DNA of 53,296 nt, from the NCBI RefSeq assembly GCF_016802865.1, contig NZ_JAEVHM010000021.1, forward strand, positions 1-53,296. The letters are read 5' to 3'. The stretch is from Micromonospora parastrephiae. Lineage in GTDB: Bacteria > Actinomycetota > Actinomycetes > Mycobacteriales > Micromonosporaceae. Within the stretch, counting starts at the first letter, position 1. Each line of letters opens with the position of its first letter. This document shows, piece by piece, positions 11,715-38,558 of the stretch. The translations under genes and the position numbers were made by a program. A model generated the notes under the pieces. It was not told the origin of the DNA. It worked only from the letters and a program-made list of their open reading frames with translations, and made no database searches.

Positions 11715-11746
11715 AGTGTAGAGCCCTCGCCTGAACGATCGCTAAG
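11715..11746 (-). promoter_or_regulatory. icmA promoter with shared 16-bp operator
   Basis: On the minus strand 11746-11731 reads CTTAGCGATCGTTCAG, an exact match to the consensus shared by six promoters. Ten bases further downstream is a good -10 hexamer, TACACT (11720-11715). The operator therefore covers the -35 region, a typical place for a repressor. The start codon is about 37 bases beyond the -10. Confidence 0.7.
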
Positions 11747-11772
11747 TCACGCCGTACCGGCGGGTAACGCGG

Positions 11773-12183
11773 TCAGGCCGTGGGCGCGGTGGCGGCGCCC
11801 ATCGCCACGTCGTCGACCCGGATGTTGACCTCGTCGACCCGCAGGCCGTACGCCTCGACGGCCTCGGTGACCCGGGCACGCACCTGACCGGTGATCTCCG
11901 GCACCGTCTGACCGGCCTGGATCACCAGCACCAGGTTGACCACGGCCGCGTCCCCGGTCACGTGGGCCGAGCATCCCCGGCGGGCGTCGCCCACCTGGTC
12001 CAGCCCGACCCGGTCGAGGACCGCGTTGAAGAACCGGGCGACGTCCCCACCCATCTCGGCCACGCCGGGCACCGAACTGGCCGCCGCGACGGCGATCTTC
12101 TCGATCACCTCGTCGGAGACCTGCGTCCTACCGCCAGCCGCCGCCGACGCCGTGGTCAGCTCCTGCGTCGCCTCGTGATCCAT
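11773..12183 (-). CDS. Asp23/Gls24 family envelope stress protein
   Basis: Small protein of 136 residues with the Asp23/Gls24 fold: VSDEVIEKIAVAAASSVPGVAEMG at the start of the domain and the repeated pattern VNLVLVIQAGQTVPEITGQVRARV toward the end. Family members associate with the cell envelope or are induced by alkaline or envelope stress; the molecular role is not settled. The start is ATG 12183, with AGGGGA 6 bases upstream; GTG 12189 abuts the ribosome site. It lies between meaB and icmA in the same direction (gap 90 bases from meaB), so it may be read with the thiolase-meaB unit, but nothing ties it functionally to acyl-CoA metabolism. Confidence 0.85.
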   Translation of the reverse strand: MDHEATQELTTASAAAGGRTQVSDEVIEKIAVAAASSVPGVAEMGGDVARFFNAVLDRVGLDQVGDARRGCSAHVTGDAAVVNLVLVIQAGQTVPEITGQVRARVTEAVEAYGLRVDEVNIRVDDVAMGAATAPTA

Positions 12184-12273
12184 ACCCACTCCCCTGCTCC
12201 TCGCGCCCGCTCCGCCGTGGGGCGGTGCGAGCCTACAAGGGCGAGGTGCCGCCGGGATGTCCCCGGTGGACGG

Positions 12274-13278
12274 TCAGCGGGCGAGCTGGGCGAGCAGGGT
12301 GTCCGCCGCCGCGTACGGGTCGAGGGCCCCCTCGGCCACCCTGGCGGCAAGCGTCGACAACTCCGTACCGTCGCGCAGGGAACCGATCCGGGCGCGGAGG
12401 GTGCCGAGCGCGATGGCCTCGATCTCGGCGGCGGCCCGCGCCTCCTGCCGGCGGCGCAGCTCGCCGTGTTCGACCAGCCAGCCACGGTGCTTGTCGATCG
12501 CGGCGGCGATGTCGTCGATGCCCTCACCTCGGGCGGCGATCGAGCGGACCACCTGCGGTCGCCACTGACCCGGCCCGCGCTCGCCGAGGGCGATCATGCC
12601 CTGGATGTCGCGGACGGTGGCGTCGACACCGTCCCGGTCGGCCTTGTTGACCACGAACACGTCGGCGATCTCCAGGATGCCGGCCTTGACCGCCTGGATC
12701 GCGTCGCCCATGCCGGGAGCGAGGAGCACCAGCGTGGTGTCGGCCAGCGAGGCGACCTCCACCTCGGCCTGCCCGACGCCGACGGTCTCCACCAGCACCA
12801 CGTCGCAGCCGGCGCCCTCCAGCACCCGGACCGCCTGCGGCGTCGCCGCGGCCAACCCGCCGAGGTGCCCGCGGCTGGACATGGAACGGATGTAGACGCC
12901 GGGATCGGTGGCGTGGTCCTGCATTCGCACCCGGTCGCCGAGGATCGCGCCGCCGGTGAACGGGCTGGACGGGTCGACCGCCAGCACGCCCACCCGGTGC
13001 CCGCGCGTCCGCAGGGCGCGCACCAGCTCGTTGGTGGTGGTCGACTTGCCCACCCCGGGCGAACCGGTCAGCCCGACCACCTGGGCCTGCCCGGCGTACG
13101 GCGCGAGCGCGGCGGCGATCGCCGGCAGCAGCTCGTCGCCGTTCTCCACCAGCGTGATCAGCCGGGCCACCGCGCGGGGGTCGCCCGCGCGGGCCCGCTC
13201 GACCAGCATCGGTACGTCCCGACTGCGGCGCACCGACGTGGTGCCCGCCGCCGGGACGTGCTCGACCGCTTCGCTCAC
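12274..13278 (-). CDS. meaB: MeaB (ArgK-type) GTPase, chaperone of B12 mutases
   Basis: G3E-family GTPase that protects and reloads adenosylcobalamin-dependent acyl-CoA mutases. It has 334 residues with a P-loop GSPGVGKST (72-80), a magnesium/switch segment around DPSSPFTGGAILGDRVRM, ETVGVGQAE, and the guanine motif NKAD. The start is GTG 13278, which overlaps the thiolase stop as GTGA (4 bases), so the two genes are translationally coupled. Being next to icmA, and in a window that also holds Ecm, it can serve either mutase; which is the true client cannot be told from sequence. Confidence 0.92.
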   Translation of the reverse strand: MSEAVEHVPAAGTTSVRRSRDVPMLVERARAGDPRAVARLITLVENGDELLPAIAAALAPYAGQAQVVGLTGSPGVGKSTTTNELVRALRTRGHRVGVLAVDPSSPFTGGAILGDRVRMQDHATDPGVYIRSMSSRGHLGGLAAATPQAVRVLEGAGCDVVLVETVGVGQAEVEVASLADTTLVLLAPGMGDAIQAVKAGILEIADVFVVNKADRDGVDATVRDIQGMIALGERGPGQWRPQVVRSIAARGEGIDDIAAAIDKHRGWLVEHGELRRRQEARAAAEIEAIALGTLRARIGSLRDGTELSTLAARVAEGALDPYAAADTLLAQLAR

Positions 13279-37596: not shown

Positions 37597-37633
37597 GAAA
37601 GAGGGGCGGGCGCTGTCCGCCCGCCCCTCTTTC
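37597..37633. terminator. Perfect bidirectional terminator
   Basis: 16-bp perfect stem: GAAAGAGGGGCGGGCG (37597-37612) pairs with CGCCCGCCCCTCTTTC (37618-37633) around a 5-base loop, with A/T ends on both sides. It ends both the ABC transporter unit and the convergent 3-hydroxybutyryl-CoA dehydrogenase gene. Confidence 0.8.
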
Positions 37634-37641
37634 TGTCCCGC

Positions 37642-38490
37642 TCAGTACGTGTAGAAGCCCTTGCCGGTCTTGCGACCCAGGTCACCGGCGGTGACCATGC
37701 GCTGGAGCAGCTCCGGCGGGAAGAACTTCTCGTCGGCCGTGTCCGTGTAGATGTTCTTCGAGGCGTGCAGCAGCACGTCCACGCCGGTCAGGTCGGTGGT
37801 GGCCAGCGGACCCATGGCGTGCCCGAACCCCAGCCGGCAGGCGGTGTCCAGGTCCTCGGCGGACACCACGCCCGACTCGACCAGCTTGACCGCCTCCACC
37901 ACCAGGGCGGAGATCAGCCGGGTGGTGACGAAACCGGCGATGTCCCGGTTGACCACCACCACCGTCTTGCCGATCCCCTCGGCGAAGGCCCGCGCGGTGG
38001 CCAGGGTGGCGTCGCTGGTCTTGTAGCCCCGGACCAGCTCGCAGAGCTGCATCATCGGCACCGGGGAGAAGAAGTGGGTGCCGACGACCGCCTCGGGCCG
38101 CTCGGTGACCGCGGCGATCTGGGTGACCGGGATGGCCGACGTGTTGGTGGCGAGCACCGCGTCGGACTTGCAGATCTTGTCCAGGGCGCGGAACACCTCG
38201 TGCTTGATCTCCAGCCGTTCGAAGACGGCCTCGACCACGATGTCCGCGTCCGCCGCCGCTTCCAGGTCGGTGGTCGGCGTGATCCGGGCGAGCGTCGCCT
38301 CGACCTCGGACGCCTCGATCTTGCCCTTCTCGGCGAACTTCTCCAGCGACTTCCGGATGCCGCCGAGCCCTCGGGTGGTGGCCGCGTCGTCCAGGTCGCG
38401 CAGCGTCACCTGCCAGCCCGCCTGCGCCGCCACCTGGGCGATGCCGGAGCCCATCAGCCCGGCCCCGACGACCGCGAGTCGACCCGCCAT
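37642..38490 (-). CDS. 3-hydroxybutyryl-CoA dehydrogenase
   Basis: Reduces acetoacetyl-CoA to 3-hydroxybutyryl-CoA, the step between the thiolase and crotonyl-CoA. 282 residues: Rossmann motif AVVGAGLMGSGIAQ, acid motif VVEAVFERLEIKHEVF, catalytic TNTSAIPVT and VGTHFFSPVPMMQLCELV (His), then GFGHAMGPLATTDLTG. ATG 38490 is preceded by GAGGGAGAAG. The pathway operator and a TAGGGT -10 lie upstream, consistent with co-control with ccr and icmA. Confidence 0.93.
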   Translation of the reverse strand: MAGRLAVVGAGLMGSGIAQVAAQAGWQVTLRDLDDAATTRGLGGIRKSLEKFAEKGKIEASEVEATLARITPTTDLEAAADADIVVEAVFERLEIKHEVFRALDKICKSDAVLATNTSAIPVTQIAAVTERPEAVVGTHFFSPVPMMQLCELVRGYKTSDATLATARAFAEGIGKTVVVVNRDIAGFVTTRLISALVVEAVKLVESGVVSAEDLDTACRLGFGHAMGPLATTDLTGVDVLLHASKNIYTDTADEKFFPPELLQRMVTAGDLGRKTGKGFYTY

Positions 38491-38526
38491 CTACTTCTCC
38501 CTCGCTGCGATTGAGTGCCTGTCTGC

Positions 38527-38558
38527 ACCCTAGTCGGCGAGCCTGAACGACGGCTAAG
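38527..38558 (-). promoter_or_regulatory. 3-hydroxybutyryl-CoA dehydrogenase promoter with shared operator
   Basis: On the minus strand 38558-38543 reads CTTAGCCGTCGTTCAG, an exact consensus match. TAGGGT (38532-38527) follows after 10 bases, the same operator-to--10 spacing as at icmA, so the operator covers the -35 region. Confidence 0.7.

Follow-up and report, generated by a model that had tools for sequence, protein, structure and literature searches.

Six copies of a 16-bp imperfect palindrome, CTKARCG-NN-CGYTMAG, precede genes of acyl-coenzyme A (acyl-CoA) metabolism in a 53,296-bp stretch of the Micromonospora parastrephiae genome (the window, meaning here the whole stretch of DNA that was analysed). 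We consider it very probable that these sites, which are conserved in the Micromonosporaceae, are operators of the family's orthologue of BkaR and AccR, a TetR protein encoded on another contig (G000:C385:62449-63045), and that this protein covers the ethylmalonyl-CoA promoters until an acyl-CoA releases it. An earlier reading of the letters of the window (the original prediction) had proposed a TetR-type repressor over an unlinked acyl-CoA regulon. Two results support it: the same site lies near the regulator gene in 32 of 50 family loci, and a matrix built from such regulator-linked sites recovers five of the six sites in the window.

Six sites in the window and their frequency in the genome

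The draft genome (G000; 6.54 Mb, 417 contigs), of which the window is contig C124, carries all six sites where they had been predicted (Table 1). Three copies are indeed exact, and the other three differ from CTTAGCNNYCGTTCAG by one, two and three mismatches. The gaps between site and start codon measure 53 bases at icmA, 33 at the thiolase gene, 13 at the epimerase gene, 29 at ccr, 31 at the double dehydrogenase gene, nine at ecm and 52 at the 3-hydroxybutyryl-CoA dehydrogenase gene (hbd), a range of 9–53 bases. The 10-base spacing between operator and -10 hexamer described originally is also seen, at icmA (TACACT) and hbd (TAGGGT); at ecm and the epimerase gene the operator overlaps or abuts a -10-like hexamer, as read from the sequence.

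A loose scan of the window alone (up to three mismatches) gave nine matches against 4.98 +/- 2.45 in shuffled sequence, with 10 of 100 shuffles reaching nine; taken by itself this result is within chance, and the genome counts are decisive. Exact CTTAGCNNYCGTTCAG occurs at three places in the genome, all inside the window, while its reversed control occurs nowhere. The broader pattern YTNARYNNNCGTTCAG has seven exact places (reversed control, 0): five of them fall within the window, a sixth precedes an acyl-CoA dehydrogenase gene and the seventh stands 59 bases ahead of a dnaA-like frame. If one mismatch to YTNARYNNNCGTTCAG is allowed, the genome gives 62 places and the control 30, which makes most weak matches noise. 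The symmetric form CTKARCGNNCGYTMAG with one mismatch is found at 15 places against three in its reversed control. The motif thus stands above its background rate across the genome.

Conservation in relatives

We sampled the best 80 of 586 relatives of ccr, which by genus name comprise 29 Micromonosporaceae and 51 other actinobacterial loci; between the window and M. acroterricola, ccr shows 98% identity. Sites were scored with a matrix (matrix M) trained on the six window sites, two more sites of the genome and ccr-locus variants found by the six-site matrix; the conservation counts thus depend on that training set, and the score thresholds of 13 and 14 used below are our own choice. At 13 or more, Micromonosporaceae loci carry the site before icmA (22/22), the thiolase (26/27) and epimerase (26/27) genes, ccr (26/29) and the double dehydrogenase gene (15/21), mostly at a constant distance and with few outliers. 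The same matrix found no site at any of 99 control genes (DivIVA-like, 0/28; Scy-like, 0/25; thioredoxin, 0/19; meaB, 0/27). The site is conserved before orthologues of its predicted targets. Among the other actinobacteria, a site precedes ccr in one of 51 loci (a Frankia, 14.0), and none was found before the epimerase (0/31), thiolase (0/33) or double dehydrogenase (0/33) genes or icmA (0/2). For ecm and hbd few relatives were compared (G002, G006, G014): G006 has the same site at ecm (16.8) and G014 a related one (13.1), and sites lie at the same place before hbd in G002 (CTTAGCGTTCGTTCAG) and G006 (CTGAACGACCGCTCAG).

A TetR gene linked to the operator

The original statement that the window holds no regulator gene is true of the TetR family: none of the 57 TetR genes listed for the genome is on its contig. 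That list counts at least 57 genes with a TetR_N domain, from 150 scored of 201 first-look candidates. Within 1.7 kb of these 57 genes, three show weak hits (scores 11.6 to 13.6), and a tandem operator of another type is present on contig C109. A link to one particular gene emerged when 16 more genomes of the family were searched by pattern and 20 stretches were fetched: in two, the site sits in the interval separating a TetR gene from one for biotin carboxylase, and each of these TetR genes corresponds to the C385 gene (71% and 83%). On C385 the gene order is TetR, biotin carboxylase, 3-hydroxy-3-methylglutaryl-CoA-lyase-like (HMGL-like), peptidase (on the other strand), carboxyltransferase and acyl-CoA dehydrogenase. 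The site nearest to this TetR gene, CCTAACGATCGTTTAG (score 23.8), lies 3.2 kb downstream of it, past the peptidase gene and 23 bases before the carboxyltransferase gene.

Each of 61 family genomes has one strong orthologue of the C385 regulator (61–99%; best one-way match per genome), and the surroundings of 50 of the 61 were examined. A site scoring 14 or more is present in 17 of 30 short loci (3.6 kb) and 15 of 20 long ones (about 8–11 kb), and in 22 of the 50 it lies less than 100 bp upstream of the TetR start. As a control, the 56 other TetR loci of the M. parastrephiae genome (192 kb in all) were scored as well; they gave two hits at or above 14, and these belong to the C109 tandem operator. 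A prior-free count of spaced words, fully independent of matrix M, points the same way: AACGNNCGTT is the commonest spaced 4+4 word upstream of the TetR gene (22/50 loci); next comes this site read in a shifted register (14 loci), and no other listed word exceeds eight. Loci L213, L214 and L226 were left out of the interpretation, and L366 and L367 lie outside the site scan.

A matrix built from the TetR-linked sites, with none from M. parastrephiae, is independent of matrix M in part only, its training sites having been found with matrix M. It ranks positions in the window as 11731 (24.9), 14508 (21.4), 42820 (18.8), 26652 (18.4), 38543 (17.6), 15199 (16.0), 7383 (9.5) and 35757 (8.9). Five of the six window sites therefore stand out, and the set first predicted and that of the regulator largely agree. 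In sixty dinucleotide shuffles the score of the sixth-ranked position was reached 0.1 times on average and at most once (top shuffled score 20.5), and the reversed window reached 8.7 at best.

Several other candidate regulators were considered and dropped. The TetR gene on C109 is immediately preceded by two tandem perfect palindromes, CTGACCGATCGGTCAG (L137:1604-1638), whose position 5 is C where the regulon has A or G, a difference of one position in each half; we read them as that gene's own operator. A PadR gene beside accA on contig C368, where there is also a LysR gene, sits with an ABC transporter. The TetR types found near ccr in Streptomyces and Pseudonocardiales are without an orthologue among the TetR genes of the genome, and no link to the present operator was found for TetR1 of Actinoplanes in the accessible text on that protein (PMC9685945).

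The candidate regulator belongs with BkaR, AccR and PccD

The C385 protein matches PF00440 and PF17932 over their cut-offs. Its closest solved structure is Mycobacterium tuberculosis BkaR (44% identical), which is the best match in PDB both by sequence and by fold of the predicted model (pLDDT, a per-residue model confidence, 90.5). In a tree using 27 of the 50 examined Micromonosporaceae orthologues, these form one clade (support 99/97) that joins 21 of 23 other-family rows at 89/88 under midpoint rooting; this grouping excludes L304, L305 and all but one of the six second-tier rows, and includes L308, which is on a long branch. By its sequence the protein qualifies as an orthologue of the BkaR/AccR/PccD group, and not merely as a similar protein.

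Like BkaR (Rv2506/MSMEG_4718), the regulator is a TetR protein with a putative 16-bp palindrome that has T-N-A near both ends; its gene may also share the setting beside acyl-CoA carboxylase genes, although the carboxyltransferase and the gene arrangement differ (see below). BkaR recognises the core GTTA(N)T(N4)A(N)TAAC, 16 bp in length, controls its own gene and acts as a repressor in branched-chain keto-acid metabolism, with 10 genes under its direct control in M. smegmatis (PMC3920632). The putative operator close upstream of 22 of the 50 Micromonosporaceae orthologues would fit such autoregulation, but the M. parastrephiae gene has no such site. AccR of S. avermitilis, and its PccD homologues in Saccharopolyspora and Mycolicibacterium, are likewise TetR repressors of short-chain acyl-CoA carboxylase genes; AccR is described as having a 16-nt operator GTTAA-N6-TTAAC (PMC10933834) and as responding to acetyl-, propionyl- and methylcrotonyl-CoA (PMC8546615). 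Two differences set the present system apart. The operator layout is that of BkaR and AccR, except that C replaces G at the edge (C/G here, G/C there), and the ethylmalonyl-CoA pathway would take the place of branched-chain keto-acid metabolism; the AccR targets listed in a review are accD1A1-hmgL-fadE4, echA8, echA9 and fadE2, and ccr, ecm and mcd are not among them. The original prediction did not recognise its motif as a published one; it is a variant of the published BkaR/AccR operator. Among the literature matches listed there is no report of the present regulon, most subscription papers being outside the search.

Two further TetR systems invite comparison. CcrR of Methylobacterium extorquens reportedly regulates an ethylmalonyl-CoA pathway gene; judged by title alone, it is an activator, and it belongs to an alphaproteobacterium. 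PaaR of Thermus thermophilus, with phenylacetyl-CoA as its ligand, has an operator with a similar core, CNAACGNNCGTTNG, and serves another pathway in another phylum.

Operator and recognition helix changed together

We compared 25 loci from other families, including the distant best hits L304–L307, which were kept in the first two counts. GTTA-N8-TAAC lies near the TetR gene in 18 of these 25 and in none of the 50 Micromonosporaceae TetR loci, where it is replaced by CTKARCG-NN-CGYTMAG; the window likewise lacks GTTA-N8-TAAC, so that the published BkaR/AccR operator as such was rejected. One residue of the motif GPxxY[x]HF (brackets marking the variable position) is His in 50/50 Micromonosporaceae, and Arg or Lys in 24 of the 25 elsewhere (Arg in 21, Lys in three), with Asn in the remaining one. 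This residue (57) ends a short helix, 53–57 in the model, which we take to be the recognition helix by comparison with TetR.

The edges themselves were counted in symmetric NTNA-N8-TNAN palindromes up to 250 bp upstream. In other families all 29 (from 17 of 21 loci) have G..C edges; in Micromonosporaceae six have C..G edges and one, unrelated, has G..C (7/50 loci), most sites of the family being too asymmetric for this strict count. Of 46 TetR-linked Micromonosporaceae sites, 33 begin with C, six with G, six with T and one with A, and 41 end in G. We infer that an Arg/Lys-to-His replacement in the recognition helix brought about the change in edge preference, from G to C. In G009, whose regulator is 65% identical, icmA and accA still have perfect or near-perfect C-edged palindromes (L211, L212). 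At L289:2174 and L293:1373, in two loci of family f16 (probably Streptomyces), a C-edged site is flanked by a BkaR-like TetR gene and a fadE-like gene. Overall, this is likely a known type of regulator with a changed operator, the regulon of which, to judge by predicted binding, has widened to the ethylmalonyl-CoA pathway.

Weighing the explanation

The preferred reading, that the six sites are operators of the C385 regulator, has to accommodate a number of results that weigh against it. In M. parastrephiae itself no site scoring 11 or more lies within 1.7 kb of the regulator gene, 18 of the 50 TetR loci hold no site of 14 or more, and the three most divergent orthologues (L280–L282) have none near the gene, with one of these genomes having sites at two other promoters. 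Under the TetR-linked matrix, the site at ecm comes no higher than eighth in the window. Conservation is patchy at mcd (5/12) and accA (11/30), where turnover is visible, and absent at the crotonase gene (0/12 Micromonospora loci), which was dropped as a target in that genus. The C385 carboxyltransferase is 37–43% identical to the one beside orthologues elsewhere (17/25 loci matched), in a different arrangement, and at so low an identity the synteny is of kind and not strict. Finally, two of four f16 loci have the C-edged site near fadE despite an Arg in the helix; the switch may thus be a shift in preference, not an absolute one.

The best-surviving alternative is that the sites belong to another regulator, of which the C385 cluster would be merely one more target. 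It draws on the missing site at the regulator's own promoter in M. parastrephiae and on a screen that covered TetR_N genes only. We regard it as improbable: a site close upstream of the TetR gene in 22 of the 50 loci is what autoregulation predicts, the mycobacterial orthologue controls its own gene by way of an operator with this 16-bp layout (PMC3920632), and the change in operator goes with a change in the recognition helix of the same protein. Much less probable still is a fixed promoter element, e.g. the -35 of an alternative sigma factor: the sites at icmA and hbd do end 10 bases before a -10-like hexamer, but the site forms a palindrome, stands anywhere from nine to 53 bases from the start codon, and overlaps or abuts the hexamer at ecm and the epimerase gene. 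Chance or common promoter composition, for which only the three-mismatch scan of the window speaks, is virtually dismissed by the genome controls, by mostly fixed-distance conservation with 0/99 at control genes and by the ranking with a matrix built from other loci.

If the six sites are operators of the C385 regulator, the protein would bind them as a dimer and, as they overlap or abut likely core promoters, would probably act as a repressor that occludes these promoters while acyl-CoA is scarce. Short-chain acyl-CoA derived from acetate, propionate or branched-chain amino acids may then lift the repressor, by analogy with the response of AccR to its CoA ligands, and the ethylmalonyl-CoA pathway and propionyl-CoA carboxylation would rise together on its release. 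Published work reports that acetate induces the ethylmalonyl-CoA pathway and that cells on glucose do not express it (PMC4606968).

A wider predicted regulon

Of the 15 CTKARCGNNCGYTMAG places in the genome, eight stand before genes that belong to this metabolism; three of these are in the window and five elsewhere (Table 1). The remaining seven include one before a selA-like gene, a match on contig C182 that lies five bases from the gene; further matches are on contigs C46, C396, C87, C223, C40, C76, C212 and C374. The regulon likely extends to propionyl-CoA carboxylation and pyruvate phosphate dikinase (PPDK), beyond the set named originally. A site of 17.3 before a pccB-like carboxyltransferase gene, eight bases before its likely GTG start, is identical in 13 of 13 Micromonospora genomes, M. 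parastrephiae included. Of the further sites that had been foreseen, those at methylsuccinyl-CoA-dehydrogenase-like and mesaconyl-CoA-hydratase-like genes and at one TetR gene cluster were found.

Contig C360 carries an mch-like MaoC protein (PF19315), an acyl-CoA dehydrogenase and an HpcH/HpaI lyase, which are candidates for mesaconyl-CoA hydratase, methylsuccinyl-CoA dehydrogenase and methylmalyl-CoA lyase. Their sites score 18.8 (mch-like), 16.5 (mcd-like) and 14.0 (mcl-like, weak). Those of mch and mcl lie inside the longest open frames, ahead of the family-match starts (residues 50 and 183), so both sites presuppose a later start codon. In all, the ethylmalonyl-CoA pathway genes with an operator in this genome are those for thiolase, hbd, ccr, epimerase, ecm and the mcd-like and mch-like proteins; that of the mcl-like gene is weak, and the crotonase gene has none.

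No isocitrate lyase over the cut-off was found in the genome (best E = 6e-4, below cut-off). Across 31 family genomes mcd and isocitrate lyase are nearly mutually exclusive: 11 have mcd only, one has both, 17 have the lyase only and two have neither (Fisher p = 1e-5; calls at E up to 1e-150 for mcd and 1e-50 or better for the lyase). This near-exclusion supports both the assignment of the acyl-CoA dehydrogenase as Mcd and the ethylmalonyl-CoA pathway as the acetate route; gene content supports the view that M. parastrephiae relies on that pathway and not on the glyoxylate shunt. Three genes of this organism look split or frame-cut, those for biotin carboxylase (L230:8121-9457), PPDK (L122:5393-8130) and ilvE (L123:9971-10744), possibly through assembly errors.

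Genes and neighbours in the window

Gene families were assigned by NCBIfam matches, whose models cannot tell isobutyryl-, ethylmalonyl- and methylmalonyl-CoA mutases apart; the names icmA and ecm follow the original prediction and gene context, the isobutyryl-CoA specificity of icmA being putative. The ecm-like mutase has a C-terminal B12-type domain. It had been claimed that the operator stands before six acyl-CoA promoters and before no gene outside that metabolism. The first part is borne out; the second needs amending at two genes. One is a divergent ATP-binding cassette (ABC) transporter ATPase gene, 36 bases from the ecm site; this gene and its permease gene (35809-37592) use a common operator region with ecm, and the ATPase gene adjoins ecm in G006 and G014 too. 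The other is a LytR-CpsA-Psr-type gene (41619-42761), 58 bases from a weaker site, ATGAACGCTCGTTCAC, at 42820-42835.

Table 1. Operators, promoter elements and genes in the window, and CTKARCGNNCGYTMAG-type sites on other contigs of the genome.
Feature	Position	Strand	Basis
Operator before icmA, CTTAGCGATCGTTCAG	11731..11746	-	Exact-pattern scan; site in 22/22 Micromonosporaceae loci
TACACT, -10-like hexamer of icmA, 10 bases after operator	11715..11720	-	Read from sequence; putative promoter
icmA-like mutase large subunit	9989..11677	-	TIGR00641, 664 bits, over cut-off; ATG at 11677
Operator between thiolase-meaB and epimerase, CTTAACGATTGTTCGG	14508..14523	+	Pattern scan; conservation
Acetyl-CoA acetyltransferase (thiolase)	13275..14474	-	TIGR01930, over cut-off
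meaB-type GTPase, downstream of thiolase	12274..13278	-	TIGR00750, over cut-off
Methylmalonyl/ethylmalonyl-CoA epimerase	14537..15013	+	TIGR03081, over cut-off
Operator before ccr, TTTAGCTACCGTTCAG	15199..15214	+	Pattern scan; conservation
ccr, crotonyl-CoA carboxylase/reductase	15244..16698	+	TIGR01751, 611 bits, over cut-off
Operator before double 3-hydroxyacyl-CoA dehydrogenase, CTTAGCGGCCGTTCAG	26652..26667	-	Exact-pattern scan; 15/21 loci
Double 3-hydroxybutyryl-CoA-dehydrogenase-like protein	24830..26620	-	NF005875, over cut-off, two stretches
Operator between ecm and divergent ABC-transporter gene, CTAAGTTACCGTTCAG; weakest of six	35757..35772	+	Pattern scan
TAGACT, -10-like hexamer of possibly leaderless ecm, overlaps operator	35754..35759	-	Read from sequence; putative
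ecm, ethylmalonyl-CoA-mutase-like (substrate putative)	33741..35747	-	TIGR00641 and TIGR00640, over cut-off
Operator before 3-hydroxybutyryl-CoA dehydrogenase, CTTAGCCGTCGTTCAG	38543..38558	-	Exact-pattern scan; sites in relatives
TAGGGT, -10-like hexamer of hbd, 10 bases after operator	38527..38532	-	Read from sequence; putative promoter
3-Hydroxybutyryl-CoA-dehydrogenase-like (hbd)	37642..38490	-	Best match NF004474, 327 bits, below cut-off of 408
Site before biotin carboxylase (accA-like)	C368:21667		
Site before acyl-CoA dehydrogenase (mcd-like)	C360:11200		
Site before quinone-oxidoreductase-like gene following malic enzyme	C413:15437		
Site before PPDK	C376:8130		
Site before branched-chain aminotransferase ilvE	C384:21926		

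Possible regulator turnover and the biology of the family

Outside the Micromonosporaceae, ccr keeps other company. A TetR gene lies within about 1.5 kb upstream of it in 16 of 17 Streptomyces loci, on the same strand (L073, L076, L082–L084, L089, L091, L096, L099, L103–L105, L109, L111, L116, L117), and in seven Pseudonocardiales loci, on the opposite strand (L067, L069, L097, L100–L102, L110). These are two unrelated types, whose best matches among the M. parastrephiae TetR proteins either cover part of the sequence or reach about 34% along its whole length. The ccr promoters of these two groups have, by eye, other palindromes, TGACAC-N3-GTGTCA-like and TTACYGGCCRGTAA, and those of Geodermatophilaceae have GTTACC-N4-GGTAAC. 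It seems that ccr changed regulators repeatedly.

One history that would connect these patterns, which we put forward tentatively and at slightly less than even chances, is that a single ancestral Arg/Lys-to-His57 change in the Micromonosporaceae moved the BkaR/AccR repressor from G-edged to C-edged operators and freed it from its old targets; the C-edged operator would then have spread to more than 12 promoters, tying the ethylmalonyl-CoA pathway, propionyl-CoA carboxylation and PPDK into one acetate-assimilation regulon.

Micromonosporaceae are known for polyketide producers, and ethylmalonyl-CoA is an extender unit of polyketides. The present analysis names a likely master switch for the ethylmalonyl-CoA genes in this family, and provides a natural example in which a repressor seems to have acquired a new operator along with a change in one helix residue. 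Streptomyces, Pseudonocardiales and Micromonosporaceae may each have ccr under a TetR protein of their own, unrelated to those of the other two, which would be a case of regulator turnover on one gene.

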